NCBI GenBank assembly: GCA_029213065.1
Contig: JARGPH010000006.1
Span: forward strand, 62,001 to 126,000
Reading direction: 5' to 3'
From: Verrucomicrobiales bacterium
GTDB taxonomy: Bacteria; Verrucomicrobiota; Verrucomicrobiia; Verrucomicrobiales; DEV007
DNA length: 64,000 nt
A model generated the notes under the pieces. It was not told the origin of the DNA, made no database searches, and worked only from the letters and a program-made list of their open reading frames with translations. This document shows, piece after piece, positions 3,723 through 26,762 of the stretch (its first letter is position 1; every line of letters begins with the position of its first letter). Both the position numbers and the translations under genes were made by a program.

Positions 3723-3740
3723 ACAGTTCATCAAATTATT

Positions 3741-4472
3741 ATGGCTGAAATTCGCTTAGATAATGTAGGCGTTCGCATCCCGGTATTCGGAGCGAACTCC
3801 AAAATGCTGAAATCGGTACTGGTAGGGTTCTTCCGCAGCAGAGAACAGAGGGAATCGACCTCAACTGTTGTAGTGGACGCGTTGACAGACGTAAATCTGA
3901 CCTTTAGTGACGGTGACCGGGTTGGCCTAATTGGGGCCAACGGTGCGGGGAAATCGACGTTTCTCAGAGTTCTAGCTGACGTCTATTACCCGACGAGCGG
4001 AATTTTTGAGAAGGTGGGGGATACAAGGTGCTTATTCGGACTGAATTCAGGACTTGAGATGGAAGGCAGTGGCTGGGATAATATAAAATACCAGGCACGG
4101 CGAATCGGTGTTCCTAAATCGAGGCTGGATGAAGTAGCAGAAGAAGTGGCTGATTTCAGCGAGTTGGGCAAAGCATTGGATCTTCCCGTGAGAACTTATT
4201 CACAAGGAATGCAAGTGAGATTGTCCTTCGGAGTGATGACCAGTATTCCTGCTGATATTCTTCTTATCGATGAAGTTATTGGTGTCGGGGATGCTTCTTT
4301 TATGGAGAAGGCCCGACAGAGGATGTTGAAATTTACTGATCAAGCGAAGATCCTTGTTTTGGCGTCTCACTCACCTGACATCATTGCGAGTTTTTGTAAT
4401 CGCCAAATTGGTTTCGAGCACGGCCGAGTCGTAAGCGATGTTCGAACTGCTGATACCCCCTCCGAATTGTGA
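3741..4472 (+). CDS. wzt: ABC transporter ATP-binding protein, polysaccharide export (Wzt-like)
   Basis: Cytoplasmic ATPase of the Wzm/Wzt exporter, 243 residues. Walker A is GANGAGKS at residues 65-72, the signature is YSQGMQVRLSFG, and Walker B is ILLIDEVIGVGD. It ends just after the nucleotide-binding domain, so it lacks the C-terminal carbohydrate-binding domain that reads the chain cap in Wzt of E. coli O8/O9a. Export may therefore not need a specific terminal modification, or recognition may be done by another protein. The next gene starts with GTG overlapping its TGA (4469-4472), indicating translational coupling. Confidence 0.92.
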   Translation: MAEIRLDNVGVRIPVFGANSKMLKSVLVGFFRSREQRESTSTVVVDALTDVNLTFSDGDRVGLIGANGAGKSTFLRVLADVYYPTSGIFEKVGDTRCLFGLNSGLEMEGSGWDNIKYQARRIGVPKSRLDEVAEEVADFSELGKALDLPVRTYSQGMQVRLSFGVMTSIPADILLIDEVIGVGDASFMEKARQRMLKFTDQAKILVLASHSPDIIASFCNRQIGFEHGRVVSDVRTADTPSEL

Positions 4473-5863
4473 TAAGTGTTCCGCGAGATTCCCGGGTCTA
4501 TGAGGTTGCTTCCGCGTTCTCATCAACTGGCTTAGGTCGGTTGATGAGTGGGCTCTTTGGTAGCTTGATCGCGTATCCAATAGCGGAGCATCTTGAGAAG
4601 CGGAGCGTTTCACCCAAGGTGAGAGAGATAGGAAAATTCTATCGATTACCGTTTTCAGAACAGAGCGCAATCTCCAGGCAGCGTCTGAAAGACACGCTGG
4701 ATTTTGCCTCTTCTGAAGTTCCTTATTATCGCGAGTTGATAAGAAAGGTGGGATTTAAGACTGAATGGGTGCTTTCCAACCCTGAGGCGATGGGTGAATT
4801 GCCCCTCCTCACCAAGGATATTATGCGCGAAGAGGGCGAGCGTATGCTTTCGAGACCATTGGCAGAGGTTGCTCATCATGCTTGTAAATCAGGTGGCTCC
4901 ACTGGTCTTTCCTGTGTTGTCTATTACGATCAGGTCGCAGCTGATTATTCGTCTGCCGTAACTCGATATTGCAGGCAGTCTACGGGGCTTAAAGGACATC
5001 ATTTTGCGTTGCATTTCGCTTGTCGTTTTCCGGATGCGATTGAAGGAAACTGGCCTTCTCGCGAGGATTGCAAATGCATTGCAATGAATCGCTACAATAT
5101 CTTTTTTGATAAGCTGGATGAGGAGGGATTGAACGAAATTGCTGAACAGTTACGTTCCCGTTGCCCCTATCTGTGCCACGCTCATCCTTCAACCTTTTAT
5201 GCTCTCGCTGAACACATTCGTAGATCCGGGGGCGAGAAGTTCTTTGAAGTATTCGAGTCGAGTGGAGAGTGGCTCACTGAGAAGGCGAGAGAATCGATAT
5301 CCGAAAACTTGCAATGTAGAGTCATTGATCGCTATGGGCTCGCTGAATTGGGAGTAATGGCCTATGAACTGGAATCGGGGAAGGGGCTTCGCTTCTTAAA
5401 TTCAGAGGGATTTGCCGAAGGCGTCGAAGGAAATAATCTTGAAGGTGATGAAGGCGCCTCGGGGTTGGTTATCACCGGATTCAGAAACCGGCTGATGCCT
5501 CTGATTCGTTATCGAACCGGCGACTGGGCCCGTCCGATAGAGAGATCAGATGGTGTGTTCCTGACTGAGATGACAGGGCGGATTCATGATATTGTCATGA
5601 TCGATGGCACGAGCTTTCCGACTCATCATATTCAGGATGTTCTTGATCATCGAATTGGTGGTATCAAAGAGTTTCAGGTAGATCGGAGGTCGCAAATTCC
5701 TGTTCTGCGGATTGCGCTGGAAACCCCCGGAACTGGGGAAGAAGCAAGGGTTCGTGATGCGGTTCGCTCATTCTGGCCCAAGGATCTGGATACAGATTTT
5801 GTCAGCTACAGTGAGTTTAAAACTGTGGGTTGGAGGGGGAAATTCAGAAGGGTGATTGAATGA
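4469..5863 (+). CDS. CapK/PaaK-like adenylate-forming enzyme
   Basis: A 464-residue member of the phenylacetate-CoA ligase/CapK branch of AMP-forming enzymes. The ATP-binding loop SGGSTG is at residues 141-146; YGLAELGVMAYE and YRTGDWARP match the adenylate-binding and hinge-side motifs. CapK homologues are common in capsule and O-antigen loci, but their substrate is generally unknown; acyl or amino-acid activation for decoration of the polymer is the usual guess. The GTG start at 4469 overlaps the wzt stop, and its own stop overlaps the next gene's ATG (5860-5863), so wzt, this gene and the next are probably one coupled unit. Confidence 0.8.
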   Translation: MISVPRDSRVYEVASAFSSTGLGRLMSGLFGSLIAYPIAEHLEKRSVSPKVREIGKFYRLPFSEQSAISRQRLKDTLDFASSEVPYYRELIRKVGFKTEWVLSNPEAMGELPLLTKDIMREEGERMLSRPLAEVAHHACKSGGSTGLSCVVYYDQVAADYSSAVTRYCRQSTGLKGHHFALHFACRFPDAIEGNWPSREDCKCIAMNRYNIFFDKLDEEGLNEIAEQLRSRCPYLCHAHPSTFYALAEHIRRSGGEKFFEVFESSGEWLTEKARESISENLQCRVIDRYGLAELGVMAYELESGKGLRFLNSEGFAEGVEGNNLEGDEGASGLVITGFRNRLMPLIRYRTGDWARPIERSDGVFLTEMTGRIHDIVMIDGTSFPTHHIQDVLDHRIGGIKEFQVDRRSQIPVLRIALETPGTGEEARVRDAVRSFWPKDLDTDFVSYSEFKTVGWRGKFRRVIE

Positions 5864-7488
5864 TTAGAATTCTATATCCAGGTCCTGCTGCTTTTCAGGG
5901 CAGTGTAGTGGAATCTGCTTTCCGTCGAAGTTGCGGGCGGCGTGCGGTCTCGACAATTCCTGTTTTTGCCCTGGGTGAGATACCGGCTGATGCTCCTGCT
6001 ATTATTGTTTTCGTAGATCCTCCTGATGAGTGGAGCCCGATTATTTGCAGGCTTATCGAATCGGCACAGAAGAAAGTTATTCTCTTTGGTGCTATTCCAA
6101 ACGGTCTTGCGGATTTCTTATCGATTCAGGAGTCTTCTTCTGAATCGATAGCAGATGAATTTGATCATGGCGAGGTCGTTCCGGCTAAAGTGGGCGAACC
6201 TGAGGAATCGTCACTGAGGATTCGCTACAACTCGTCGTTCTTTAACCTTTTGGGAGAGTTGGTTGATCGGCCTCTCGTGCGATATGATTTCGAGGCTGAG
6301 TGGAATAACCTTGGCTTTGGAATGATTCATTCCCGTTTGGGAGCAATTTGGGGGGTGGCTCAACCGGGAGTGTTGGCCGGTAGGAATTCACTTGGAGATA
6401 TAATAGATACTGCTTTCGGCCGGAGCACTGTCAAAGGAACATACGTTGCACTGTGGGAGCAAAGTGGAGCGTCTTTTTTGTGGTGGAACCGGTCCGTGGG
6501 CCCGGTCGATTCAGGAGAGTGGAAAATCGTAGAGGATTTTATCTGTAATGCGCGCTGCGAGGAGCTTCCCTGTCAGCCTGTGATAAGGGATGTTCCGGGC
6601 GGTTACCAGAGCGCCGTTACGAGTCGTCTCGATTGCGATGAAGACGTTGAGTCTTCCCGCTATCTTTTTAACTCTTATCAGGAGTGGGAGATTCCATTTT
6701 CTCTGGCCGTTTGTACGAGGTTACTTGATGATGCGAAGCATCATCAAATTTTGAAGGATGTTTCCTCGAGGGGTGGAGCTGTTCTTTCTCATTCGCAGAC
6801 TCATTTTCCGGAATGGGGAGGTAATTATCGAGTCGCTGTCGGAGAGGCTAAATCATCCAAAAAGCGAATCGAAAGCATTCTTGGTGAATCTGTTGAATTT
6901 GTGGTGTCGCCGTTTCATCAAACACCACGCTACGCGGTCGAGGCGCTTCAGGATACCGGATACCAAGGAGTCGTAAGCGGAATACCTCGTAACGATCCTG
7001 AATTGTTTGTCTCCAGAGCGGGGACTCCTCCATTTGCATCTGAGGGATTCATCACCCATAGCCAGGCTACGATGCTGCACGGAGACTGTCTCGTGGACGG
7101 AAGGAAAGAAGACGGGAACCCGAATCCAGGTGAAACTTTTCAAAGAGCGTTTCAAATAGCTTTAAAGTCGGAATCTTTTTTCGGGTACTTGGATCACCCA
7201 TTCTCAGAGCGCTATGCTTATGGCTGGGATTCCGAGGAGCAGAGGGCTGCTGTCCATCGCGAGCTGATAAAGGTGATGAAAGAGTCTTCAGAAAAAGTTT
7301 GGTTTGCGAATCAAAACGAAGCTCTCGCTTTTCTGGCCTCGAAGGACCGTTTGAGCTACAAGGAGAACAGAGAATGCTTTAAGTTTGGCCATGGTGAAAG
7401 GCCCGGGCGCCTTCCCATTGAAGTGATTTACAGAAAGCAGCGACACCGTTTGCCGGTCAACTCAACGTCTCTTTTGATTTCGCTTTAA
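5860..7488 (+). CDS. Large protein with C-terminal NodB-fold (polysaccharide deacetylase-like) domain
   Basis: 542 residues. The C-terminal half carries a CE4-like signature: an acidic motif 1 (RLDCDED, residues 256-262) and a clean motif 2 HSQTH (His311 and His315). DD plus HxxxH form the metal site in NodB-fold deacetylases. The first ~240 residues are not recognised; they begin with a Rossmann-like beta-alpha pattern and contain no clear signal peptide, suggesting a cytoplasmic protein acting on a lipid-linked or nucleotide-linked sugar. It overlaps the CapK-like gene by four bases. Candidate substrates are N-acetylated sugars of the repeat unit, inferred from context only. Confidence 0.65.
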   Translation: MIRILYPGPAAFQGSVVESAFRRSCGRRAVSTIPVFALGEIPADAPAIIVFVDPPDEWSPIICRLIESAQKKVILFGAIPNGLADFLSIQESSSESIADEFDHGEVVPAKVGEPEESSLRIRYNSSFFNLLGELVDRPLVRYDFEAEWNNLGFGMIHSRLGAIWGVAQPGVLAGRNSLGDIIDTAFGRSTVKGTYVALWEQSGASFLWWNRSVGPVDSGEWKIVEDFICNARCEELPCQPVIRDVPGGYQSAVTSRLDCDEDVESSRYLFNSYQEWEIPFSLAVCTRLLDDAKHHQILKDVSSRGGAVLSHSQTHFPEWGGNYRVAVGEAKSSKKRIESILGESVEFVVSPFHQTPRYAVEALQDTGYQGVVSGIPRNDPELFVSRAGTPPFASEGFITHSQATMLHGDCLVDGRKEDGNPNPGETFQRAFQIALKSESFFGYLDHPFSERYAYGWDSEEQRAAVHRELIKVMKESSEKVWFANQNEALAFLASKDRLSYKENRECFKFGHGERPGRLPIEVIYRKQRHRLPVNSTSLLISL

Positions 7489-7620
7489 GCTTTTTGAAGC
7501 TGAAGTGAATTGAGGCAATTCAGTGGTAAATTCCTTTGTCTTCGCGAAGTCTCATCTTTTAAAGCACCGTTGTATTTTTAATTATTGTTCTCGTCCGGGA
7601 AAGGGGCGAACAATCTTACT
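7489..7620. other. 132-bp gap before wecB
   Basis: AT-rich, with no gene or clear hairpin. A weak purine-rich AAAGGGGCG lies upstream of the wecB ATG. Confidence 0.3.
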
Positions 7621-8724
7621 ATGAGAATTTGCCTAATTATCGGTACTCGTCCGGAGGCTATAAAAATGGCTCCGATTGCGCTAGTTGCGAAGGACTTGGG
7701 TTCAATCGATTGTCACATTTGCTTTACTGGGCAGCATGCGGAAATGGCACGGACGGCTCTTTCGGTGTTCGGTTTGCAAGCGAACAGTGATCTCAATGTA
7801 ATGATTCCGGGGCAGTCGCTTTCAACCCTCACCGCAAATTTAGTACAGAAGCTTGACGGGTTCTTTGCGGAAAATCAGTTTGATGTCGTCCTAGTTCAAG
7901 GAGATACGACCTCCGCTTTTGTAGCCGGCTTGGTTGGATTCTATCACCGTATCCCAGTCGGTCACATCGAGGCGGGATTGAGAACGGGCAATCTTCAAAG
8001 TCCGTTTCCTGAGGAAGCTAACCGATCTCTGATCGGCCGGTTGGCAAATTGGCATTTTGCCCCCACTTTAAATTCATCTGCAAACCTCCGGACTGAGGGC
8101 GTTCCCGAGGGAAGCATTTTTGTGACCGGAAATACTGTCGTAGACGCTGTTGAGTGGCTCGGAAATAGAGAGTCATTCAGATACTCAAAAGGAAAGAAAT
8201 TCGATTTTCTTGATCGTAATTCCCCGGTTGTTTTTGTGACTCAGCACCGCAGGGAGAATCATGGAGACCCGCTTCAGCATGTTTGCCAGGCACTGATTGA
8301 ACTGGCGGATAATTTTTCCAGTTCGCAGTTCGTCTTTCCGGTTCATCCCAATCCCGCTGTAAAGGAGGTTATCCATGAGAGCCTAGGGCAGCTGAAAAAC
8401 GTGTTTTTACTCGATCCAATTGATTTTGATGACTCGATATATCTCCAGAGTATTTCCAGTCTCATCATAACTGATTCTGGTGGCATTCAGGAAGAGGCAC
8501 CATCTTTCGGCGTGCCTGTACTGGTTACGAGGGAGCATACAGAGCGCATGGAAGGTGTTGAAAGCGGATGTGCGATGTTGGTTGGCACGGATCAGGGAAA
8601 AATTGTAGAGAATGCCACAAGCGTTCTCAGTGCCGGTGGAAAACGGGATGCGGACATATCGAATCCTTATGGAGATGGGGCAGCCGCAAAGAAGATACTC
8701 GAGATCCTGGAAACAGTGGTGTGA
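7621..8724 (+). CDS. wecB: UDP-N-acetylglucosamine 2-epimerase (non-hydrolysing)
   Basis: Interconverts UDP-GlcNAc and UDP-ManNAc in the cytoplasm. The 367-residue protein has the standard N-terminus MRICLIIGTRPEAIKMAPI, the conserved QGDTTSAF and HIEAGLRTG motifs, the EEANR motif, and the UDP-binding DSGGIQEEAPSFGVP near the C-terminus. The ATG at 7621 is chosen because an in-frame TTG at 7585 would add 12 residues before the conserved start. No UDP-ManNAc dehydrogenase is present in the window, so ManNAc itself or a derivative made elsewhere may be the product used. Confidence 0.95.
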   Translation: MRICLIIGTRPEAIKMAPIALVAKDLGSIDCHICFTGQHAEMARTALSVFGLQANSDLNVMIPGQSLSTLTANLVQKLDGFFAENQFDVVLVQGDTTSAFVAGLVGFYHRIPVGHIEAGLRTGNLQSPFPEEANRSLIGRLANWHFAPTLNSSANLRTEGVPEGSIFVTGNTVVDAVEWLGNRESFRYSKGKKFDFLDRNSPVVFVTQHRRENHGDPLQHVCQALIELADNFSSSQFVFPVHPNPAVKEVIHESLGQLKNVFLLDPIDFDDSIYLQSISSLIITDSGGIQEEAPSFGVPVLVTREHTERMEGVESGCAMLVGTDQGKIVENATSVLSAGGKRDADISNPYGDGAAAKKILEILETVV

Positions 8725-8821
8725 GCGAGTAAGAATTTCGGCCTAATTTCAGGGCTTGGAATTTATTGTGATCACACGCAGCCGTGAATTGTTTCACTCA
8801 GAGTCTACAATCTGGTATCGA

Positions 8822-9982
8822 ATGGACATAATCCTGTTTTCAACTGCCGACTGGGATGAGCCGTATTGGACCAACAAACAGCACGTTACCTTTGAGTTGG
8901 CGAAGTTGGGGCACCGGATCCTTTATGTAGAGAGTTTAGGGCTGAGAGCACCAAAATTAGGGGATAGAAAAGACTGGGGGCGGGTCCTCTCCCGTTTGAA
9001 AGGCTGGCTCAGTCCAATCAAAAAGAGAAATGAGAACATTTGGGTTTTTTCGCCGATTCAGTTTCCCTTCTTTCGCGGCTGGCCTCCTGTTGCAGCACTG
9101 AATCGACAGGGAGTATCACTGCTCGTAAAGCACTTTCTCAGGAAGAATGCGTTTCACGATTGCATCCTCTGGACTTATCATCCCTTCCTCGACGGAATAG
9201 AAGATTGTCTGCCCTGGAAACGATTCGTATACCATTCTGTGGATGATCTTGGCGCACTGCCTTTTATTAGCAGGGAAAAGTATGACCGATCAGAACGGGC
9301 CATGCTTGAAAAAGTAGATATTGTTTTTGTCACAGCGAGAGAGCTCGAGAGCCGTTTGAAACCCTCTCATGGTAATGTCCACTTCATGCCGAATGTGGTT
9401 GACTTTGAGCATTTTAGTAAAGCTTTTGACGAGGCTACGAAAATTCCCGAAGATTTGGCCTCTATTCCCGAACCTCGAATTGGATATATCGGAGTGCTAT
9501 CAGATTTTAAGGTGGATTTTAACCTCCTTATTGAAGTCTTCAGGACCGCGCCCGATCTCAATTTGGTTTTAATAGGGGACGAAAGAGAGGGGCAGGGATC
9601 TGATTTGCTCAAGGAGCTTGTAAAGTTGGAGAATGTGTTTCACCTCGGCTACCGGTCATATTCCGAGCTTCCAGGATACCTGAAAGGAATGGACGTAGGG
9701 CTGCTGCCAACGAAAATTAACGATTACACTAAATCGATGTTCCCAATGAAATACTTTGAGTATCTCGCTGCCGGTGTGCCGGTGGTGTCAACTCGTCTGG
9801 ATTTTACGGAAAGTGTTACGGAAGGAATTATAGTCGCGACCGAATTTGTTCCATTCAGGGATGCAATTCGGAAACAAGTCCACGATATTCCATCATTTGA
9901 AAATGCAAAGGGTCGGGTTGCAGGGAATACATGGAGGGCACGAACCCTTCGTATGATTGAACTGAGCGAGCAGTCTTCCTAA
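8822..9982 (+). CDS. Glycosyltransferase, GT4-like (GT-B fold)
   Basis: 386-residue GT-B glycosyltransferase. The start MDIILFSTADWDEPYWTNKQ and the sequence YHSVDDLGALP resemble the family of TuaH-like transferases. The C-terminal domain contains RIGYIGVLSDFKVD, HLGYRSYSELPGYL and the nucleotide-sugar binding KYFEYLAAGVPVVST. The ATG at 8822 is preferred; upstream in-frame TTG codons would add an unlikely N-terminus. It lies about 100 bases after wecB. Acceptor and donor cannot be read from sequence. Confidence 0.85.
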   Translation: MDIILFSTADWDEPYWTNKQHVTFELAKLGHRILYVESLGLRAPKLGDRKDWGRVLSRLKGWLSPIKKRNENIWVFSPIQFPFFRGWPPVAALNRQGVSLLVKHFLRKNAFHDCILWTYHPFLDGIEDCLPWKRFVYHSVDDLGALPFISREKYDRSERAMLEKVDIVFVTARELESRLKPSHGNVHFMPNVVDFEHFSKAFDEATKIPEDLASIPEPRIGYIGVLSDFKVDFNLLIEVFRTAPDLNLVLIGDEREGQGSDLLKELVKLENVFHLGYRSYSELPGYLKGMDVGLLPTKINDYTKSMFPMKYFEYLAAGVPVVSTRLDFTESVTEGIIVATEFVPFRDAIRKQVHDIPSFENAKGRVAGNTWRARTLRMIELSEQSS

Positions 9983-10097: not shown

Positions 10098-11006
10098 ATG
10101 AAAGTTTTAATTGTTGCCGATCAGAATGCCAGGTTTGAACCTCGGGGAGGTGAAGTATTGCTCGAATCGATAAAGGATAGACTGAGCCAGTTTGGACTAT
10201 TTGCGGTCGACTATGAGAGGTCCGAAAGTGGATTGAACTCAGTCATCGCAATTTTCGTATTTTCCTTGAGCGCTTTGGGGAAAGTTGACGCAGAAAAATT
10301 TCATAGGGCCGGAATTCCAGTGTATTGTTGGCCATTCTTCTGGAGTGGTGGGGAAGTAATGGGGTTGGATGAGAGAGTTGAGTACGTCTTTAATTCCAAA
10401 GCTGAAAACGACTGCTTTGTGGAATCGTTGAGGATCACTGATCCGTTGAAGTGTCGCGTAGTCGGACTGCCGGCCCTTGACCGGTATACCCCTCGAGAAA
10501 ATAAATTATTCTGTGATGTGATTGGTCGTACTGAATATCTCCTGACAGTGGGAACGATTGAAGAAAGAAATAATCAGACTGGTGTGATTGAGTTGGCACA
10601 AGGAACAAATGCTTACTGTGTCTTCGTTGGTCCGGTCGTCGACGTTGAGTACCACCAACGATGCCTTCAGGTAGCCGAAGAGGCAGGTGTCGAATGCCTG
10701 TTTATGGGCGGTTTGCCTTTCGGCGGGCGCCTGATTAATTCCGCCTATAATAATTGCTCCTATTATATTGAGGTATCATTCGATCCTCCTGGGCTTTCTT
10801 CAGTGGAAGCATTCAATTCCGGTGCAAAGTGTATTCTAAGTAATCCTATTTGGGTTGCCGAGGTTTTCGGCGACAGGAGAGGAGTGGTCGCCCTTTCAGA
10901 AGGTCATGATACCTTGGAGAACATTATGTCAACTATGGAAAATCCTGACGAGAGATACTCTGGAGTTGAATTTGATAACTTTATTCAATCCATCATTTCA
11001 AAGTAA
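10098..11006 (+). CDS. Divergent GT-B glycosyltransferase-like protein
   Basis: 302 residues, weakly conserved. The N-terminus MKVLIVADQNARFEPRGGE is like the GGE loop of another glycosyltransferase in this locus (17334-19007), and VGTIEERNNQTGVIEL sits where GT4 enzymes have their E-x-R-K-N motif. The typical C-terminal E-x7-E motif is reduced (FDPPGLSSVEAFNSGAKCIL). Its stop is immediately followed by the ATG of the cyclase gene (TAA then ATG at 11007), so the two are probably co-translated. Glycosyltransferase activity is inferred, and the enzyme could be altered. Confidence 0.6.
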   Translation: MKVLIVADQNARFEPRGGEVLLESIKDRLSQFGLFAVDYERSESGLNSVIAIFVFSLSALGKVDAEKFHRAGIPVYCWPFFWSGGEVMGLDERVEYVFNSKAENDCFVESLRITDPLKCRVVGLPALDRYTPRENKLFCDVIGRTEYLLTVGTIEERNNQTGVIELAQGTNAYCVFVGPVVDVEYHQRCLQVAEEAGVECLFMGGLPFGGRLINSAYNNCSYYIEVSFDPPGLSSVEAFNSGAKCILSNPIWVAEVFGDRRGVVALSEGHDTLENIMSTMENPDERYSGVEFDNFIQSIISK

Positions 11007-12086
11007 ATGTTTGTACCCTTATACGATTCGCTCAAAGAGTTGAAAAGTTCCGTAAAATTGGTCATCGGGCAGGATGATCAACTTTTCAGCGGACTTTATG
11101 AAAAGCTTGAGCCTTTTGAGAAAGTCGTTTTTCTGATCGATTCTAATGTATATCAACACTGGAAGACTCGAATTGACGAGGAATTCTGCAGATATGGTGA
11201 AAGGGGCATTCGATTTCTTGTCGGGAGTGGTGAAGCGTCAAAACGCTTTGGATTCTATCGGGATCTTATTGAAAATTTTCTAAGAGCAGGAGTGACTCAT
11301 GATAGCGCAGTGGTCGTGGTTGGTGGGGGCACGTTGGGCAATGTCGGAGGGTTTGTAGCATCGACCTTTCAGAGGGGAATCGCACTATTTCAAGTACCTA
11401 CGACTTTGATGGCCCAGGTTGATGCGATGATTGACTTCAAACATGCCATTAATCTCAATGACGCCAAAAATCAGGTTGGAACATACTTTGAGCCGAATTT
11501 GATCTTGGTGAATCCTGCTTTTCTCCGTTCCCTGCCGAGAAGAGAGATGAGTTCGGGGGCCGCAGAAATATTGAAACATGGAATGACGCATGATTTGCGC
11601 CTCTTGGACTTAGCGAGCGATGCAAAAGACAGTGGTGAATTTGAATCTTTGGTTGCGGCTACAATTAAATCGAAAGCCGATCTTCTGAGTCGGCGTGGTG
11701 AGGATTGGTATAGTGAGATGGCAATGCAGTATGGCCATGCTATCGGCCATGCTGTCGAGCATGAATCGGGGCATTCTCTCAATCATGGTGAAGCTATCTC
11801 AATCGGAATGGTGGCAACGAGTCATCTAACAAAACATCTTCTAGGGCATGATTTGATCAAAGAGCACAGGGGGATCTTTGAAGACTGGGGGCTTCCAACT
11901 TCATGCTTGATTCCATTACATCGAGTCTTATGCGCGATGGTTCATGATAAGCACTCCGTTGGGAATAGTATCCGAATTGGACTTCTGTCCAGGCTGGGGC
12001 AGCTAAGTCGTCATGAAGAGGAGGATTACGGTTTTCTGGTTTCAATCAAAGACGTACGTGCATCGCTTTTGAACTTCTTCAGTTGA
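11007..12086 (+). CDS. Sugar-phosphate cyclase (3-dehydroquinate synthase superfamily), DOI-synthase-like
   Basis: 359-residue member of the AroB superfamily, which cyclises phosphorylated sugars with NAD+ and a divalent metal. The NAD loop reads GGGTLGNVGG (106-115), and metal ligands appear at Glu187 (AAEILKHG), the histidines of YGHAIGHAVEH (244-252) and His260 (HGEA). AroB has G-D in the NAD loop and GGKTGVN in the substrate loop. This protein has G-N and FKHAIN (144-149), as 2-deoxy-scyllo-inosose synthases do (GN, KQAVN). It therefore probably makes a cyclitol ketone rather than dehydroquinate; substrate assignment is an inference. It lies among glycosyltransferases, with an SDR gene 1.1 kb downstream. 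Confidence 0.8.
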   Translation: MFVPLYDSLKELKSSVKLVIGQDDQLFSGLYEKLEPFEKVVFLIDSNVYQHWKTRIDEEFCRYGERGIRFLVGSGEASKRFGFYRDLIENFLRAGVTHDSAVVVVGGGTLGNVGGFVASTFQRGIALFQVPTTLMAQVDAMIDFKHAINLNDAKNQVGTYFEPNLILVNPAFLRSLPRREMSSGAAEILKHGMTHDLRLLDLASDAKDSGEFESLVAATIKSKADLLSRRGEDWYSEMAMQYGHAIGHAVEHESGHSLNHGEAISIGMVATSHLTKHLLGHDLIKEHRGIFEDWGLPTSCLIPLHRVLCAMVHDKHSVGNSIRIGLLSRLGQLSRHEEEDYGFLVSIKDVRASLLNFFS

Positions 12087-12120
12087 AGTTTGTTTAGGGG
12101 CCGTCAAATATAGTAATCTG

Positions 12121-13218
12121 ATGATTTTCTACGATATCACCGAACTATACCGGTTTAACAAGTGTTCCGGCATACAGAAGGTGACGAGCGAGTTTTTGAA
12201 GTTCGGTTTATCGAACTTGGGAGATCAGTTTGTTGTTTGCTTTCTGAAAGATGGCCAATTGTTCACTGTCACTGTGATTGTTTCTCCTGAAGGTGATATT
12301 GAGGGGTTTGAGGAAATCAAAGCGGCTCCTTTTCCAAGTGCAGGTGATCTCTATTTAATGGTTGATCTCTGTTATAATCACGGTGAAACAGAGTGGGGGG
12401 TAATTGATTCGTATAAGAATCATGGAGTTACGGTGGTTGCTGTTTTGTATGATTTGATTCCAGTTAGGCACCCTGAGTGGTTCCAAGGGGATGCGATCGG
12501 GTGGTTTGAAGAAGGTGACTATCTTGCGCGGTTCAATTTGTGGTTGAGTTATGTTCGCAGGTATTGTGATGCAATTGGTTGTATATCCGAATACGTTCAA
12601 GAGGACTTCCGCAGCCTTGCTGACTCTTTCCCTGACCCATGTCCCAATACATTTTCTTTTTTGCTTGGTTCCTCAACATACGGCCTCAAAAGGAAGAATG
12701 AGTTCGATAGTAACGATTTTATATCAGTGGGAACAGTAGAGCCGCGAAAAGGGTATTCTCTTCTTATAGATGCTTTTGAACGTCTGTGGCGGGACGGGGA
12801 TGATGTTCGGCTCGTAATTGTGGGCAAGAAAGGTTGGTTGGTCGATGCTCTCTGCGAACGAATCCAGATGCATAGAGAATACGGGAAACGATTGTTGTGG
12901 TTAGCGGATGCATCGGATGATGAATTGCTTGCTAGATATCGTCGGGCTAGCGGTTTCATCAGTCTGTCGGAAAATGAGGGTTTTGGCCTTCCTGTTATCG
13001 AGGCCGCCGCGTTAGGTCTTCCTGTTATTTTGAGAGATACCCCAATTTACCGTGAAGTCGGCGTGGGTTTTGCAGCGTACGTTCAGGATGTTGCGGCCGT
13101 TGTAGAAAGGGTTCGAGAAATACAGAGGGGGGATTTAAAAGGTTGCAATTCCTCTGAGAATATAAGGAGTTGGGAGTATTGCGCAGATCGGTTCTATTCG
13201 AAATTGTCTAAATTATGA
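12121..13218 (+). CDS. Glycosyltransferase family 4 (SGIQ-type)
   Basis: 365-residue GT4 enzyme. The N-terminal loop CSGIQKVTSEF corresponds to the GIQR(V) loop seen in two other enzymes of the locus (15640-17061 and 19256-20407). VLYDLIPVRHPEW and GTVEPRKGYSLL (E-x-R-K motif), then SLSENEGFGLPVIEAAALGLPVI as the donor-binding E-x7-E region, are clear. Its TGA overlaps the ATG of the SDR gene (13215-13218). The linkage formed is unknown. Confidence 0.88.
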   Translation: MIFYDITELYRFNKCSGIQKVTSEFLKFGLSNLGDQFVVCFLKDGQLFTVTVIVSPEGDIEGFEEIKAAPFPSAGDLYLMVDLCYNHGETEWGVIDSYKNHGVTVVAVLYDLIPVRHPEWFQGDAIGWFEEGDYLARFNLWLSYVRRYCDAIGCISEYVQEDFRSLADSFPDPCPNTFSFLLGSSTYGLKRKNEFDSNDFISVGTVEPRKGYSLLIDAFERLWRDGDDVRLVIVGKKGWLVDALCERIQMHREYGKRLLWLADASDDELLARYRRASGFISLSENEGFGLPVIEAAALGLPVILRDTPIYREVGVGFAAYVQDVAAVVERVREIQRGDLKGCNSSENIRSWEYCADRFYSKLSKL

Positions 13219-13961
13219 AGGTCGTTGTTGTAACGGGTACGAACCGGGGAATCGGAAAGTCGATTAAATCGGTGTTGAAGTTAGCTGGATACTTCGTTAT
13301 TTCGGTAAACCGTTCTAATGAGCTCTTAAGCCGTGCTGAATTGCTGGTCGAAACTGATTCGGAAATAGAGATTGGTTTTGATTTACGTAATTCAGAAGGG
13401 TATGAGGGATTGAAGATGCTCTTGTCTTCACATAGAATATACGGTGTGGTGAATAATGCTGGGGTTTGTATTCCCGCTGACCTTGAAGACATATCATTTT
13501 CTGATCTCGAGGAAACTCTCATAGTTAATTTGTTGTCACCATTTAGGCTATCAAAATTGGTACTTGATTTGATCGACGGCGAAGGTCGTATCATCAATAT
13601 TTCCTCCCAACTGGGGGTTGACGGGAGGGCTGGGTATTCGGCATACTCAGCGGCTAAATTTGGCCTCATTGGAGCAACGAAATGTTGGGCAAAAGAGCTG
13701 GGACAGAGAGGGATCACCGTAAATGCCATTTGTCCCGGGTGGGTTAGCACGGACATGTCCAAAATCGATTTGGCTGCCCAAGCACGAAGATTGAACAAAG
13801 ATCCGGAAGACTTTTTTGCCGAAATCTGTGAACCTTTGGAATTAAAGCGGTTCAATACTCCAGATGAGGTAGCGCATTTGGTTGAGTTTTTGATCTCTGA
13901 AAAAGGAGGAGGCATTACCGGTCGGGAATTCCTCATGCAAACAGTATGGAATCAATGTTAA
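13215..13961 (+). CDS. Short-chain dehydrogenase/reductase (FabG-like)
   Basis: 248-residue classical SDR: TGTNRGIG at 7-14, NNAG at 80-83, catalytic Ser at about 130, Tyr144 and Lys148 in YSAYSAAKFG, and the PG motif in CPGWVSTDM. It overlaps the preceding glycosyltransferase by four bases. FabG-like SDRs reduce ketones or oxidise alcohols. In this neighbourhood a role in reducing or oxidising a cyclitol intermediate from the cyclase at 11007 is plausible, but a nucleotide-sugar substrate is equally possible. Confidence 0.85.
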   Translation: MKVVVVTGTNRGIGKSIKSVLKLAGYFVISVNRSNELLSRAELLVETDSEIEIGFDLRNSEGYEGLKMLLSSHRIYGVVNNAGVCIPADLEDISFSDLEETLIVNLLSPFRLSKLVLDLIDGEGRIINISSQLGVDGRAGYSAYSAAKFGLIGATKCWAKELGQRGITVNAICPGWVSTDMSKIDLAAQARRLNKDPEDFFAEICEPLELKRFNTPDEVAHLVEFLISEKGGGITGREFLMQTVWNQC

Positions 13962-14036: not shown

Positions 14037-15470
14037 ATGCATATTCTAATTGATCTACAGGCCTGTCAGAGTGCAAGCCGACTGCGTGGTGTAGGGCGAT
14101 ATTCCATGTCTCTCAGTCTGGAGGTGGTTCGACAGGCGGTTTCTCGAGGTCACGAAATTTCAATTTTACTCAATGCTGCATTTCCTGATTCGATTTCACC
14201 AATATCCAGGGTATTTGATGATCTTGGCCATCAGGTTGGAGTTGTTCTTTTTCGGGTGCCTCGACCCTGTGCCGCGATGAATATGGCCAATGGCTGGAGG
14301 CAGCGCTCTGCGGAGGTGCTCAGAGAGCGGGCTATTGCACAGGTCAATCCTGACTTCGTTATTGTTTCGACGCTTTTGCCTGACGGGTGGGTAGATGATT
14401 CGGTTGTTTCTGTCGGCACGCTTGGGCTGAGCGTGCCGGTGGCAGTTGTTCATTATGATTTAATTCCGCTAAGCATGCAGGATCTTTATCTTGTGGATAA
14501 AGCATTTCGAGAGTTTTACTTTCGGAAGATTGAAGACCTTAAGCGGGCTGATTTATTGCTCGCTATTTCAGAATATACTAGAGCAGAGACCATTGATTTA
14601 CTGGGTGTTTCCGAAAGCTCGATCGTTAATATATCATCTGCAGTGGATGAAGGATTCGGAGATCAGAGTGAGAATATCGAAGATGATAGTGTAAAAATTA
14701 TTTCATCGTTTGGAGTAAAATCCGGATATCTGTTGTATGTCCCTGGTGGATTCGATCCAAGAAAGAATTTAGATCGCTTGATAGAAGCTTATGGTAATAT
14801 TCCGATGTCACTTCGAAACAGGCATCAGCTCGTTATAGGAAGCAAGTTGGAACCCAACACGACTAAGGCTTTACGAGATAGAGCAAATGAATGTGGGGTT
14901 GGTATCGAACAGATGGTGCTTACGGATTACATTACGGACGAGGAGTTGGTTCACCTTTATAAAGGGTGTCTTGCCTATGTTTTTCCCTCGCTGCATGAGG
15001 GGTTCGGATTGCCGGTTCTTGAAGCAATGGCTTGTGGTGCTGCAGTTATTGCCTCAGATATTTCGAGTTTGCCTGAGGTCGTGGGATGCGATGAGGCTAT
15101 GTTCGATCCATATTCTGTGTCTAGTATCGCTGATAAAATAGCTCAGGTGTTGAGCGATGATAATTTTAGAGAGAGGCTACGAGAGCATTCTTGCGTTCAG
15201 CTGTCGAAGTTTTCCTGGAAGCGTAGTGCTGAACTGGCCATTTCTGCGATTGAAGAGAAGCATGCGCAGCTAATCAGTGATGGAAAGACTGATAATACGG
15301 ATGATAGATTGCCCAATTGTGAAGCTCTGTTAGAGAGCATGGAATCTCTTGATCTGGAGTTTGGGCCTCAGGATTTAACACTGTTCCGTTCTTGTTTTGA
15401 AGATAATATTTCGTTCACGAACCCAGAGAGCAAGGGACAAGTTCTTTCCGAGAAGGAAGGCAAGGATTAA
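14037..15470 (+). CDS. Glycosyltransferase family 4 with C-terminal extension
   Basis: 477 residues. MHILIDLQACQSASRLRGVGRYSMSL is the N-terminal acceptor-side motif of mannosyl/rhamnosyltransferases of the WbdB/WbpY type (stated from memory; first 18 residues are the key part). LYVPGGFDPRKNLDRLI holds the E/D-x-R-K-N motif, and SLHEGFGLPVLEAMACGAAVI is the donor site. About 90 extra acidic residues follow the GT fold, ending near SEKEGKD; nothing recognisable is in them. Given gmd-rmd downstream, a GDP-D-rhamnose or GDP-mannose donor is plausible. Confidence 0.88.
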   Translation: MHILIDLQACQSASRLRGVGRYSMSLSLEVVRQAVSRGHEISILLNAAFPDSISPISRVFDDLGHQVGVVLFRVPRPCAAMNMANGWRQRSAEVLRERAIAQVNPDFVIVSTLLPDGWVDDSVVSVGTLGLSVPVAVVHYDLIPLSMQDLYLVDKAFREFYFRKIEDLKRADLLLAISEYTRAETIDLLGVSESSIVNISSAVDEGFGDQSENIEDDSVKIISSFGVKSGYLLYVPGGFDPRKNLDRLIEAYGNIPMSLRNRHQLVIGSKLEPNTTKALRDRANECGVGIEQMVLTDYITDEELVHLYKGCLAYVFPSLHEGFGLPVLEAMACGAAVIASDISSLPEVVGCDEAMFDPYSVSSIADKIAQVLSDDNFRERLREHSCVQLSKFSWKRSAELAISAIEEKHAQLISDGKTDNTDDRLPNCEALLESMESLDLEFGPQDLTLFRSCFEDNISFTNPESKGQVLSEKEGKD

Positions 15471-15639: not shown

Positions 15640-17061
15640 ATGCAACTAAGAGAAGAAGAAATAAGGAGAGCAAAGTCGATTTTTGAATGTCCCGGGAACG
15701 CTGTTCCTGATGCGCTTTCTAAGGTAATGGAAGAGGGCGATACAGGTAAAAGAGTCTGTCTTCTTTTCATGATTATATGCGGGCGAATCGCTTTGCGTTC
15801 GGAGTGCTATTACCTCGAGAGTATTTTTGATCGAAGGTCGCTGTGCGAGTTGATCGAGATTTGTCGGACATTTCCAAGTGTCGATTCTGATGTTGTCGTT
15901 CCGAAGTCGAAAATTCTAATTGATGTCACGCACACCATGGGATATTCCCATCTCTCCGGTATTCAGAGGACCGTCTACGTGATTTCAGTGGCTCTTGAGC
16001 AGAAATGGGATGTCATTTTTGTTAAGAACGTGCATGAGAAAGGGCTTACCCCGTTGTCGGATGTCGAAGCGGAAGCGTTCCTCGGCAAGTATGCAGCTGA
16101 TTTTGATGGCGATGTTACTTCTGGTGAGTGCACTTTGGATCGAGATACACTAATTTGGCCGGAGTACTGCACGCTACTTTGTAGCGAGTTGCTTGACAAT
16201 GACAGGGTCTTTGTCTACTATGGTCTCTTGAAGAGCGCTGCACACAGTGTGGCTGTCTTTTATGATTTAATACCTATTACTCATCCCCAGTATTGTCACC
16301 CGGGGATTGTTGGGGCGCATGTTGAATATGCTGGTATTCTAAGTGGTTTTGACCGTGTGTTAGCGATAAGCGCCTCGGCTTGCGCTGAGTTGAGGGGTTT
16401 TCTGGCATCTTCGGGTAAGCGCCACGAGCATGTGGAGCCACTTTTACTTCCTGATTTTAATTGCTTTACCGGGGATTGTGAGCGGGGCGAGAAGGGGCGT
16501 CCACGGATTGCGTATATATCGACGATGGATCCCCGAAAGAACCACCTGCGCCTCTTTGCTGCCTGTGAGGAGTTGTGGACGAGTGGCATGGACTTTGAAT
16601 TGCATTTGATAGGCGGGGTTGGGTGGAGAAATGAAGTCCATCAGTCAGAATTGCATCGCTTAGTGGTGTCTGGCTACCCTGTTATACGTCCGCAGAAATT
16701 CGTCAGTGACCGTGAGATTATGGAACTCTATTTTTCGTGCGATGCGACCGTTTTTTGCTCGGAAGCAGAAGGGTATGGCCTGCCTATCATTGAGAGTCTT
16801 GGTCTGGGGGTTCCTGCTATTGTTTCAAATTGTGGTTCAATGAAAGAGCTAGCCGACCTTTGTGGTGGATGTCACTTGATCGACCCCTTTGATGTAGGAT
16901 CAATAAAAGAAGGCATCAAAACCGTTCTGACTGACGACGAATACAGAGGAGGGCTGAAATCATCAATCGATCTTTCAGGCCTCCCTTCTGTCGAACAGTA
17001 TGTTTTGGAGCTAATGGCAGATTCAAAGGAGTGCAATGTTTCCACTTTCGCTAAGTTATAG
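15640..17061 (+). CDS. Glycosyltransferase family 4 with N-terminal helical extension
   Basis: 473 residues. Roughly the first 90 form a predicted helical segment not present in its paralogues; then ILIDVTHTMGYSHLSGIQRT begins the GT-B fold with the same SGIQ loop as the proteins at 12121 and 19256. ISTMDPRKNHLRLFAA carries the donor-side basic motif, and CSEAEGYGLPIIESLGLGVPAI the E-x7-E region. It is separated by gaps of 169 and 272 bases from its neighbours, so it may be transcribed on its own. A stem-loop follows the stop. Confidence 0.85.
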   Translation: MQLREEEIRRAKSIFECPGNAVPDALSKVMEEGDTGKRVCLLFMIICGRIALRSECYYLESIFDRRSLCELIEICRTFPSVDSDVVVPKSKILIDVTHTMGYSHLSGIQRTVYVISVALEQKWDVIFVKNVHEKGLTPLSDVEAEAFLGKYAADFDGDVTSGECTLDRDTLIWPEYCTLLCSELLDNDRVFVYYGLLKSAAHSVAVFYDLIPITHPQYCHPGIVGAHVEYAGILSGFDRVLAISASACAELRGFLASSGKRHEHVEPLLLPDFNCFTGDCERGEKGRPRIAYISTMDPRKNHLRLFAACEELWTSGMDFELHLIGGVGWRNEVHQSELHRLVVSGYPVIRPQKFVSDREIMELYFSCDATVFCSEAEGYGLPIIESLGLGVPAIVSNCGSMKELADLCGGCHLIDPFDVGSIKEGIKTVLTDDEYRGGLKSSIDLSGLPSVEQYVLELMADSKECNVSTFAKL

Positions 17062-17088
17062 CGCCCATTATTGTGGAAGAGGGGCGCT
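17060..17088 (+). terminator. Stem-loop after glycosyltransferase
   Basis: AGCGCCC (17060-17066) pairs with GGGCGCT (17082-17088), loop 15 bases, directly at the stop codon. No T run follows, so the terminator role is uncertain. Confidence 0.35.
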
Positions 17089-17333
17089 AGAATCACAAAA
17101 GCGTTGTGAAATTGTTCTTACGGTCTCCTTTACGGCGGATATCTTTTCCAGAAAAGTTCTCCGTAATTTGTAAGTGCATTAAAAAGTAAGTAATAATCGT
17201 CTTTGAGATGTTCTAGGGTAGGCGGATTGCCGCTTCACGACTTCTGTTCCTTCCTGCAGTAAATAACTAGCCACTTTGTTGAATCAAGTGCTGCCATGCT
17301 TGAGTTAAAAAAAACTAATTATTCTAATTTTAG

Positions 17334-19007
17334 ATGTCTAAGAAAACACCCAATAATCTATTCGTGGTAAGATACGCTACACACCCGACCGCCTATTTCT
17401 CACCAGGAGGGGGCGAGGTACAGTTACGTCAATATCTCGAAAATCTTAAGGGGTATGACGTGGCGCTGTTCGACTATTGGGATCCACAAATCGAATCGAT
17501 CGACATCGTGCACTTATTCTCAGTCTTTGCTATGATGCTTCCCCTTGTTCATGAGTTGAAGCGTATGAATGTTAAGGTAGTGGTGTCTCCTAATTTATGG
17601 GTAAGTGAAGCAAATGCCAAAGACGTTGATTTACCGTCCGTAGCGAGGATTTTTGAGGCAGCTGATGCTATTGTCTGTAACTCCCAGCTTGAGGTTGGTA
17701 ACTTGTCTGCCTATACGGGGGTGGCGCGTGAAAAGTTTCATGTGGTCTATAATTGTTTCGATGACAGTTTTATTGAAGGCGGGCAATCAGTTGAGAATCG
17801 AGAGGTATTTGCGGGCAAGATTCCTGAAAGGTTTATCTTCGGGGCGTGTAATATCGAATCCCGGAAGAATTTACTCAGATCTCTTGAGGCAGTGATGGAG
17901 TATACCGACCTTCCTTTTGTTGTTGCTGGAGGCTGTAGAGATAAGAGGTTGCTTAAACAATTGAAAAACCTTGGGAAAGATCGTTTTGTTTATATAGGCC
18001 GAATTAATTCTGACCAGCTGAAGTGGTGTTACCAAAGGTGCAATGTATTTCTTTTGGCTTCAATTCTCGAGACTCCGGGTATCGCAGCGTTGGAGGCTGC
18101 TGCGTCAGGGGCCTCAGTTGTTATTACTGATAGAGGGTCTACAACCGAATACTTCGAGGGTGGGATTTTTGTTGATCCGTTCTCCATTGAGTCGATTGGA
18201 CGGGGGATTGAAATGGCATTGGAATCCTCGCCCTTAACGGATGTTACACGTTTTAACACCGGTAGCACGGCGGCTCAACTTTCTTCAGTTTACGGTAGTA
18301 TTCAGCTCGATTCAGATCCCAGGGTCTTTCAAGATGGAATAGAAGGGAGTTCGCTTTCTTACGCTGAAATAAATGCCAATGGAGTGTTCCAGTGGAGTCA
18401 GAGTCAGTTTGCAATAAGTTCTAGTTATCCTCGTTACAGATTGCGTATCGTCTCTGAAGTTGGCGGGACTCTTTCAGTGTCTCGAGACGGGAGGACAAGC
18501 GGGGTGTTCGTTCTCAAAGCTGGCTGCAACTGGGTGCGGATTAACGACGGAATGGGTGTGTCTCGTTTCAACGTGGTTTTGAATGAAAGCGAGGCCGATA
18601 ATTCGAATATGGATATGCGAGATCTGGGAGTGATGATATTTGAAGTAAATGTTGGTGTTTCGAGTGAGGAAATCTTTTCTCCTGCTCAATCTGGGCAGGG
18701 CTTTTATCCTGTTGAGATGGATGATTCTCAAACTTATCAGTGGGCTGAGTCGGAGTTCACTATTGATTCGCAAATAGAAAAATACTCTTTGAAAATATGG
18801 TCCCCTTTTGCTGGAATCCTTATTCTGAATTCTGGAGGTAAAGAGAGAGATCGATTTGACATCACCCCGGGTTACAACACTGTGAACGTAAAAAATGGTG
18901 GCGGTTCTTGTCTATTCGTTACACAGCTTGAGACCGCAGAGCTCAATCCGTTAAGGGACGATCCGCGAGACCTCTCCGTTAAAGTTTTTAAAGTGAATCC
19001 AGATTAA
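17334..19007 (+). CDS. Glycosyltransferase family 4 with duplicated C-terminal beta domain
   Basis: 557 residues. The GT-B part (about 1-320) has SPGGGEVQLRQYL, VVSPNLWVSE, ACNIESRKNLLRSLEA and ASILETPGIAALEAAASG. From about 340 to the end there are two copies of a ~100-residue all-beta domain, offset by 116 residues: QWSQSQFAI at 353 against QWAESEFTI at 469, and RDLGVMIFEV at 429 against RDLSVKVFKV at 545. Domains with the R-D-L-G-V ending occur behind glycosyltransferases and methyltransferases and may bind carbohydrate. The tandem copy is unusual and may hold the growing chain. The donor is unknown. Confidence 0.82.
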   Translation: MSKKTPNNLFVVRYATHPTAYFSPGGGEVQLRQYLENLKGYDVALFDYWDPQIESIDIVHLFSVFAMMLPLVHELKRMNVKVVVSPNLWVSEANAKDVDLPSVARIFEAADAIVCNSQLEVGNLSAYTGVAREKFHVVYNCFDDSFIEGGQSVENREVFAGKIPERFIFGACNIESRKNLLRSLEAVMEYTDLPFVVAGGCRDKRLLKQLKNLGKDRFVYIGRINSDQLKWCYQRCNVFLLASILETPGIAALEAAASGASVVITDRGSTTEYFEGGIFVDPFSIESIGRGIEMALESSPLTDVTRFNTGSTAAQLSSVYGSIQLDSDPRVFQDGIEGSSLSYAEINANGVFQWSQSQFAISSSYPRYRLRIVSEVGGTLSVSRDGRTSGVFVLKAGCNWVRINDGMGVSRFNVVLNESEADNSNMDMRDLGVMIFEVNVGVSSEEIFSPAQSGQGFYPVEMDDSQTYQWAESEFTIDSQIEKYSLKIWSPFAGILILNSGGKERDRFDITPGYNTVNVKNGGGSCLFVTQLETAELNPLRDDPRDLSVKVFKVNPD

Positions 19008-19255
19008 GCGGGATGGAGTTTTTACGACCATAATAGTGCGGTTCGCATAAGGTTGTGTTATGTGGAGTGGCTGCATACCGTTAATCTTAAATTAGATTAT
19101 ATTTGTTTAAGCTGGCGAGTATCCGATAGGTGTTTTGGCTGCAATTATGAAATCTGTGGTGATGCTGAAATAGGTGGTTTTGTATGGACCGAGGGGGCCA
19201 TTTTGGAAAAATTAAAAAGTATTCGAAGAGGTTAAATGAAAACTGGTTGTGTGCT

Positions 19256-20407
19256 ATGAGGCAATTAATGGTTGATGTATCCGAATTGGTGAATGTAGAT
19301 GCTCGAACTGGCATTCAAAGGGTCGTTCGCAGTATTTTGCAACATCTATTGAGTTCTGAATCGATAGGGTTTAAAGTTGTACCCGTTTATTTTGATCGAG
19401 AGACTGGGTTTATGTATGCCAATAGATTCCTTGATTCATTTACAGGGCGGGAATCTGTTGGGGGTGGAGATAAGGAGGTGGAATTTAGCAAGGGAGATGT
19501 CTTTCTAGGGCTTGATTTCGCTATTCACTTTTTTCCGGAGATGAATGCTTCTCTTGTCTCAATGAAGGAGCGGGGGGTGATTGTGAGTTTTGTTCTTTAT
19601 GATCTTACTCCGATTCTGAATCACGCGTGTCATACTCCTGAGTTGGTTGAAATGTACCGAGTATGGCTGAACTCTGTTTGTTCAGTTTCTGATGTTATCG
19701 CATGTATTTCCAAGTCCGTGGAGAATGATTTAAACTCGTGGCTTACAAGTGCAAAATGTGATGATAGTGATCTGAGGGTAACCAGTTTTCATTTGGGGGC
19801 AGATATTGAAAACAGTTCTCCCACTCGAGGGCTTCCTGAAGATTGCGACGAGTCGATCAAAGCGTTTTCTGGCAGTGCAATTTCCTGTTTGATGGTAGGT
19901 ACTATGGAGCCAAGGAAAGGTTACCGATTTGTTCTAGATGGGTTTGATCAGCTTTGGGCAGGTGGGGCCGACATTTCTCTGGTTATTGTCGGGCGTTCAG
20001 GGTGGGGCATGGAGTCGTTTCAGGAGCGGCTTTTGGTGCACCCGGAGTTTGGCAAAAGATTGCATTGGCTGAACGGAGTTTCGGACGAATATTTGAGCCT
20101 GATATATGGGGCCTCTGACGTATTAATAGCGGCATCCGAGGCTGAGGGGTTCGGGTTACCTTTAATTGAGGCAGCCGTTCATGGATTGCCTGTAATAGCA
20201 CGAGATATCCCCGTTTTCAGAGAGGTCGGCGGTGGGGCTGCGTTCTATTTCTCGGGGGAGGATCCGGCTGCGTTTTGCCAAGAGATTCATCAATGGATTG
20301 ATGAATTTAAGAATGGAAGTCACCCTAATTCAAGCGAGATGACTTGGTTGACCTGGGCGCAGAGTTCGCAGGCGCTGGTGGAGGCTATTGGATTACCGAA
20401 ATCGTAG
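19256..20407 (+). CDS. Glycosyltransferase family 4 (GIQR-type)
   Basis: 383 residues from the ATG at 19256: MRQLMVDVSELVNVDARTGI begins the fold and the GIQRVV loop follows. GTMEPRKGYRFVLDGF and ASEAEGFGLPLIEAAVHGLPVI are the E-x-R-K and E-x7-E donor motifs. An earlier in-frame TTG/ATG at 19184 would add a non-conserved 24-residue leader. A seven-codon frame (MKTGCVL, 19236-19259) preceded by GAAGAGG ends in TGA overlapping this ATG, so coupled initiation from a mini-cistron is possible. Paralogue of the genes at 12121 and 15640. Confidence 0.85.
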   Translation: MRQLMVDVSELVNVDARTGIQRVVRSILQHLLSSESIGFKVVPVYFDRETGFMYANRFLDSFTGRESVGGGDKEVEFSKGDVFLGLDFAIHFFPEMNASLVSMKERGVIVSFVLYDLTPILNHACHTPELVEMYRVWLNSVCSVSDVIACISKSVENDLNSWLTSAKCDDSDLRVTSFHLGADIENSSPTRGLPEDCDESIKAFSGSAISCLMVGTMEPRKGYRFVLDGFDQLWAGGADISLVIVGRSGWGMESFQERLLVHPEFGKRLHWLNGVSDEYLSLIYGASDVLIAASEAEGFGLPLIEAAVHGLPVIARDIPVFREVGGGAAFYFSGEDPAAFCQEIHQWIDEFKNGSHPNSSEMTWLTWAQSSQALVEAIGLPKS

Positions 20408-21675: not shown

Positions 21676-21696
21676 TAATTACTATATAGAAAAGAT

Positions 21697-22731: not shown

Positions 22732-22749
22732 TTCTCGTTCTAAACCGTT

Positions 22750-23613: not shown

Positions 23614-23868
23614 AGCTGTGATCGGGTTGACATTCATATCGACACGTTGGCTGTCGATATAATCTTGAAGATTGGAATTCCTATATTCGGGAGGTAGATG
23701 GTGGGATTGCGTCATCATGCCCCTTGGTGATTCCTGATTCCTCGCGCTAGTTGAGATCCAGTTGGGTGTGGTTTTTTTGCAGTCTCCTCGGGGGGCTGTT
23801 CGAAAATCATCGCAATGGTCGAGAATTAAATTTATTTCTACATTTTGGGATTCAGGAAAGCGATAGAT
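23614..23868. other. 255-bp gap
   Basis: No gene recognised on either strand. It contains GATATCGACA-like dyads near 23637-23660 that are too weak to name. Confidence 0.25.
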
Positions 23869-24981: not shown

Positions 24982-25060
24982 TTTCTTGAGAGATGTGGAT
25001 TTTCACCGGTAACTGGATTCCCGGATATTCTTTAGTGTTGCGTTTTCTTCTATTTTTTTG

Positions 25061-26600: not shown

Positions 26601-26762
26601 AATGGTTTGAGGTTGTAGACCGGGCGGGCACTCTTCCCTGCTGCGGTGTCTTCGCAAATGGGAGCGGGTTCAGGGAAAGTGGTTTAAGACAGGATTGACT
26701 GAGATAGGGAATAGAGGTATCGATCCATTTTCCGGCCCGCCCGGATCAAGGAGATCGCTTCT
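26601..26762. other. 162-bp gap before the WbpM-like gene
   Basis: No gene or strong hairpin; AAGGAG at about 26748 is a plausible ribosome-binding site for the next start at 26763. Confidence 0.3.

Follow-up and report, generated by a model that had tools for sequence, protein, structure and literature searches.

The open reading frame at 11007-12086 of the window (the whole 64,000-nucleotide stretch of Verrucomicrobiales DNA that was analysed) encodes a sugar phosphate cyclase (SPC) that is not the housekeeping 3-dehydroquinate synthase (DHQS, AroB) of this genome. By the tests available from sequence, it also does not appear to be a standard 2-deoxy-scyllo-inosose synthase (DOIS). The favoured reading, with about an even chance of being right, is that the protein is a divergent, functional SPC that converts a neutral sugar phosphate to a keto-cyclitol, probably reduced by a co-encoded SDR, for use in a surface glycan. 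The more specific proposal that it represents an undescribed SPC subfamily making a carbocyclic residue (an SDR-reduced keto-cyclitol) that enters a surface polysaccharide as building block or cap is a tentative one.

The cyclase gene is located in an ABC-transporter-dependent surface-polysaccharide cluster, as the gene content (a Wzm/Wzt exporter, WecB, glycosyltransferases and Gmd) is that of a locus for an ABC-exported surface polysaccharide. The features of the cluster within the window are as follows.

1623-2732, + strand: DegT aminotransferase, nearest to WbpE (UDP-3-keto-GlcNAcA type) and not to DOI aminotransferases
2931-4472, + strand: Wzm/Wzt-type polysaccharide ABC exporter (family matches under equivalog cut-offs)
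4469-7488, + strand: CapK/PaaK-like adenylate-forming protein and a weak polysaccharide-deacetylase-like protein
7585-9982, + strand: wecB (UDP-GlcNAc 2-epimerase, above cut-off) and a GT4
10098-11006, + strand: weak GT4-like protein (PF00534, 22.8 bits, under the 26.4 cut-off), abutting the cyclase
11007-12086, + strand: SPC of 359 aa (PF01761 and PF24621), with core residues D139, K145, K154, N155, E187, K190, K223, H244, H248, H260 and K315 and unusual residues N112, D143, F144, H146, E237, Q241 and H316
11322-11471, + strand: NAD loop GGGTLGN to substrate loop DFKHAINLNDAKN of the cyclase, the pattern used for scans
12121-13218, + strand: GT4 glycosyltransferase (family scans)
13215-13961, + strand: classical FabG-like SDR oxidoreductase (TGxxxGIG, NNAG, Ser and YSAAK, read from the translation)
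14037-15470, + strand: GT4 glycosyltransferase after the SDR (family scans)
15640-20407, + strand: three more glycosyltransferase-like ORFs (15640, 17334 and 19184), read from sequence alone
within 20806-28640, + strand: FkbM-type methyltransferase, Gmd, two NDP-sugar SDRs and a GT4
within 20806-28640, + strand: initiating phosphoglycosyltransferase and CapD/WbpM-like dehydratase

At its upstream end the cluster starts shortly before the window with a UDP-glucuronate-decarboxylase-like gene (L186:13913); it runs to position 28640, and it also has a UDP-sugar dehydrogenase and about eight glycosyltransferases in all, with some names assigned from sequence only. The GC content is 44-48% across most of the cluster versus ~55% in the flanks; the low GC, together with absence from relatives (see below), fits a variable, recently acquired surface-glycan module. 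The preliminary description of this DNA had the cyclase stacked tightly between glycosyltransferases with an overlapping SDR, and the coordinates bear this out. The cyclase ATG directly abuts the stop codon of the ORF at 10098-11006 (TAA/ATG, zero gap), the GT4 gene at 12121-13218 begins 34 bp downstream of the cyclase, the SDR overlaps the 3' end of this GT4 gene by 4 bases, and the GT4 at 14037 begins 75 bp past the end of the SDR. An assignment of the latter GT4 as MshA was not used as the score was weak (58.8 bits versus a cut-off of 462). The WbpE-like aminotransferase (1623-2732) and WecB (7585-8724) suggest that the same polysaccharide contains an N-acylated diamino-uronic acid (ManNAc3NAcA-like). 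Amination of the cyclitol by the DegT protein was considered and rejected since that protein is WbpE-like.

The cyclase belongs to the SPC superfamily by domains, residues and fold. Both DHQS-family domains, N-terminal and C-terminal (Pfam DHQ_synthase and DHQS_C), score above cut-off, and the motifs GGGTLGN and VDAMIDFKHAINLNDAKN are present. The AroB-superfamily metal ligands, the Asn of the NAD loop and the FKHAIN stretch that had been described earlier are all found in the intact 359-aa ORF. In the alignment, the Zn ligands E187, H244 and H260 are intact, as are K145, K154, N155, K190 and K223, and the catalytic D/K/K/N/K/H set of the superfamily is complete. The window has a single match to the degenerate pattern GGGxxGN...K[HQ]..N (mean of 0 in 100 shuffles). 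The AlphaFold model (pLDDT 90.8) has the SPC fold, with VIA Z scores of 34-41 versus DHQS, DOIS, ValA and DDGS chains. As the predicted fold is about equally close to all four, the overall fold does not decide the substrate.

The genome encodes three family members, namely a normal AroB (C21), an ebo-type cyclase (C3) and the 11007 cyclase. The separate AroB (G000:C21, 368 aa) has all of the AroB motifs and groups with AroB of the same family; the 11007 cyclase is therefore neither the sole copy nor the housekeeping enzyme. The outcome that would have refuted the preliminary description (clustering with AroB, or a genome lacking another AroB) did not arise, and the earlier view that it is a non-housekeeping SPC holds. 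The best TIGRFAM for the cyclase is aroB, but the TIGR01357 cut-off was not reached (242.7 bits, cut-off 305); the same is true of TIGR04425, the AroB-related putative phospholyase (168.3 bits, cut-off 400). The substrate pocket can be compared with the 11 DAHP-pocket residues given for the S. aureus and M. tuberculosis enzymes, SaDHQS and MtDHQS (PMC6262012). In the alignment, 9 of the 11 are kept in the cyclase and two are changed, Arg235 to E237 and Asn239 to Q241. Replacement of the pocket Asn of MtDHQS by Ala resulted in the loss of almost all activity (PMC6262012). The pocket Lys corresponds to K315, which is retained, and H316 therefore does not figure among the pocket changes. The Arg replaced by E237 is presumably the residue that binds the DAHP carboxylate. 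AroB and the cyclase thus share the fold, the NAD and Zn motifs and most of the pocket, K315 included, whereas AroB has Arg where the cyclase has Glu, Asn where it has Gln, D where it has N in the NAD loop (the D to N change is found in none of the 41 AroB rows) and GGKT where it has DFKH.

The cyclase had also been described as looking like DOIS, and this stands for the NAD-loop Asn and not for the substrate loop. The Asn is common to the cyclase and BtrC (PDB 2d2x/2gru; the BtrC query matches 2d2x but for one residue), and the DHQS-pocket Arg and Asn are both replaced in DOIS and DOIS-like proteins as well. In the substrate loop DOIS-like proteins have KQ where the cyclase has KH, which confines the likeness to the NAD-loop Asn. 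The degenerate pattern GGGxxGN...K[HQ] was found at at least 118 loci in 84,980 species genomes. The DOIS-like comparison set was picked by the NAD-loop GN pattern, which permitted H or Q at position 146, and among the matches listed the residue after the active-site Lys is Q in 113 of 113 rows, a Glu precedes YGH in 110 of 113 and the Asn of DNK is present in 109 of 113; the cyclase has H146, Q241 and K315 at these positions. Additionally, position 143 is D in the cyclase versus S or G in DOIS, and its identity is ~23-28% to those rows aligned from the core DOIS-like clade. The gene context differs as well. A DegT aminotransferase is nearby in many DOIS-like loci among the matches listed, whereas a 2-DOS/DOI-type aminotransferase is absent from the polysaccharide locus, where the sole DegT protein is WbpE-like. 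Among the matches listed (pattern-selected, loci of ~8 kb), none of the DOIS-like cyclases had two or more GT4 homologues nearby, and the idea that DOIS-like genes elsewhere reside in polysaccharide loci was unsupported. An identification as DOIS is therefore not upheld.

Two maximum-likelihood trees were determined; both are unrooted and neither includes characterised EEVS or DDGS rows. The AroB and DOIS-like rows are split in both trees (support of 98 and 100/100), and the AroB rows are set apart from the 11007 cyclase with 100/100 support; the cyclase falls outside the AroB proteins in both trees. The core DOIS-like clade (23 rows, 100/98) also leaves it out, and it forms a lone long branch (1.5-1.6) between AroB and the DOIS-like enzymes. 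With unrooted trees and so long a branch, the safe statement is that the protein is neither AroB nor core DOIS, its exact place being unsure. The uncharacterised proteins that lie nearest to it in the trees come from a Parcubacteria genome, an unclassified bacterium and a DeMM thaumarchaeote, with ~36% identity at best. These proteins (L158, L086 and L148 types) are the nearest in sequence (33-36% for L158 and L086), and L158 and L086 also lack the DOIS Glu, but they keep a GGKQ loop, and no glycosyltransferase neighbours were seen in the stretches read. EEVS and DDGS (ValA, 4p53; Ava_3858, 5tpr) have the same cyclase fold (VIA Z 36.8-37.4) and are the lowest of the 16 PDB sequence matches. 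Foldseek and VIA ranked DHQS chains slightly above DOIS for the model. EboD is far off in the tree and, unlike the cyclase, has D in the NAD loop; the third family member of this genome (G000:C3:142860-143198; L003 910-2232) is EboD-like.

Several other cyclases were observed in the course of these comparisons. In two Chloroflexi genomes, DOIS-like cyclases (L076 4098-5189 and L094 2750-3835) are encoded with SAM methyltransferases immediately on one side and a UbiA-like prenyltransferase on the other, and this conserved gene order is possibly that of a lipid-linked cyclitol pathway. The DeMM thaumarchaeote cyclase (L148 / L182 4097-6199) shares one frame with a preceding sugar-binding domain of the LacI/periplasmic type and adjoins an aroE-like gene. 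In Tepidisphaeraceae (L184), a DOIS-like cyclase is found by sugar ABC-transporter and rhamnose-isomerase-like genes, which suggests a catabolic or sugar-linked role. In Brasilonema (L066 / L183 6972-9234), a DOIS-like cyclase precedes a sugar phosphate isomerase/epimerase-like protein and an MFS transporter, and similar cyclases are present in several cyanobacteria. A DOIS-pattern cyclase is also encoded on an IMG/VR contig listed as viral (L187 8848-10410); its genes are high in GC and look actinobacterial, making a viral origin doubtful.

The cyclase is rare. No match at E<=1e-50 was found in 142 relatives, the genome itself aside, and a sample of 387 phylum-wide genomes yielded no comparable cyclase, the best matches inspected being AroB. 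The NAD-loop Asn together with the conserved Lys/Asn pattern was found in this genome alone in both samples (387 and 142 genomes). Scans for exact 8-mer peptides, confirmed by tblastn, detected no close relatives in 84,980 species genomes or IMG/VR. No close relative of the SDR (E<=1e-50) was found in 72 genomes, and there is no orthologue cluster from which a conserved cyclase-SDR-glycosyltransferase linkage could be read. Planctomycete matches slightly above the AroB level (L177 and L178) turned out to be AroB, and the plasmid matches examined proved to be either AroB or an aDHQS-like gene belonging to a polyketide cluster. A literature search limited to open-licence papers turned up no report of a cyclase within a polysaccharide locus.

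A DHQS-like substrate keeps some plausibility, given the nine DAHP-pocket residues in common, and the protein could be a second, divergent DHQS supplying dehydroquinate, a quinate-type acid or extra shikimate flux. The retention of K315, which is missing from most DOIS-like enzymes, favors this reading, as do the aroB TIGRFAM match and the structural ranking of DHQS chains. It is decidedly unlikely given the charge reversal from Arg to Glu, the loss of the Asn needed by MtDHQS, the NAD-loop Asn and the normal AroB elsewhere; other aro genes are also absent near the cyclase (window and 15 kb upstream). A bona fide DOIS that acts on Glc6P but has drifted in sequence would account for the NAD-loop Asn, the replacement of the same two pocket positions and the side of the tree on which the protein falls. 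The substitutions at all of the marker positions (H for Q146, Q for E241, K for N315 and D for S/G143), the low identity and a locus without a DOI aminotransferase make it unlikely.

The two remaining alternatives concern what is made. A free or secreted cyclitol, aminocyclitol or signalling compound could be produced by a cyclase that merely sits in the polysaccharide locus, and this is consistent with the finding that no kinase or nucleotidyltransferase for cyclitol activation was seen in the cluster or the 15 kb upstream, and with the DegT genes near many DOIS-like genes among the matches listed, as in small-molecule clusters. We consider it quite unlikely, as the genes abut and overlap between glycosyltransferases and the cyclase is without a transporter or aminotransferase of its own. 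The combination of D143, F144, H146, E237, Q241 and H316 was found in none of the other rows compared in the alignment, and it may be asked if the protein no longer cyclises and uses SPC chemistry for another step, either eliminating phosphate from a sugar phosphate or NDP-sugar or changing its redox state; with the Zn ligands and catalytic Lys, Asp and His residues all kept, this is very improbable.

The reading as a divergent SPC rests on observed features, namely the intact catalytic residues, the predicted fold, the altered pocket, the separate AroB and the gene context. SPC enzymes carry out oxidation, phosphate elimination, re-reduction and ring closure in one active site. As in related enzymes, NAD+ and a divalent metal would be bound, and the cyclase would oxidise one hydroxyl group of a sugar phosphate, expel the phosphate, re-reduce the intermediate and form the carbocycle through aldol attack. 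The change of the pocket Arg to Glu would disfavor an acidic substrate such as DAHP and points to a neutral ketose or aldose phosphate as the probable substrate, for example of the glucose 6-phosphate or sedoheptulose 7-phosphate class, with a keto-cyclitol as the product. FabG-like SDRs are very common; the co-encoded one is a candidate keto-cyclitol reductase that probably reduces the ketone. A glycosyltransferase of the locus may then join the cyclitol to the exported glycan, in which the cyclitol could act as an acceptor or cap, or it could be activated by enzymes encoded elsewhere. The substrate, product, SDR step, activation and incorporation are all inferred. Counting against the reading as a whole are the failure to see a kinase or nucleotidyltransferase in the locus or 15 kb upstream, the want of an orthologue cluster, the commonness of FabG-like SDRs and the finding that, among the matches listed, DOIS-like cyclases did not lie with polysaccharide genes.

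To our knowledge, carbocyclic residues are rare in bacterial glycans. Bradyrhizose is an inositol-fused sugar of the Bradyrhizobium O-antigen (PMC4743980); in 2016 its synthesis genes were called unknown and a candidate 11-gene cluster was assigned (PMC4743980). Most of the proteins in an SPC tree have been described as not biochemically characterised (PMC5133447). The 11007 cyclase is best regarded as a variant of the known superfamily in an unusual context, with a putative function and a DOIS label that its sequence does not support, and it adds a new branch for substrate assignment across the SPC superfamily. A polysaccharide-locus cyclase with a pocket unlike that of DHQS or DOIS offers a directly testable route to a carbocyclic glycan residue. 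Since the cyclase is not the housekeeping enzyme and is also unlike those of standard antibiotic pathways, it may serve to incorporate a carbocyclic "sugar" into the cell coat.
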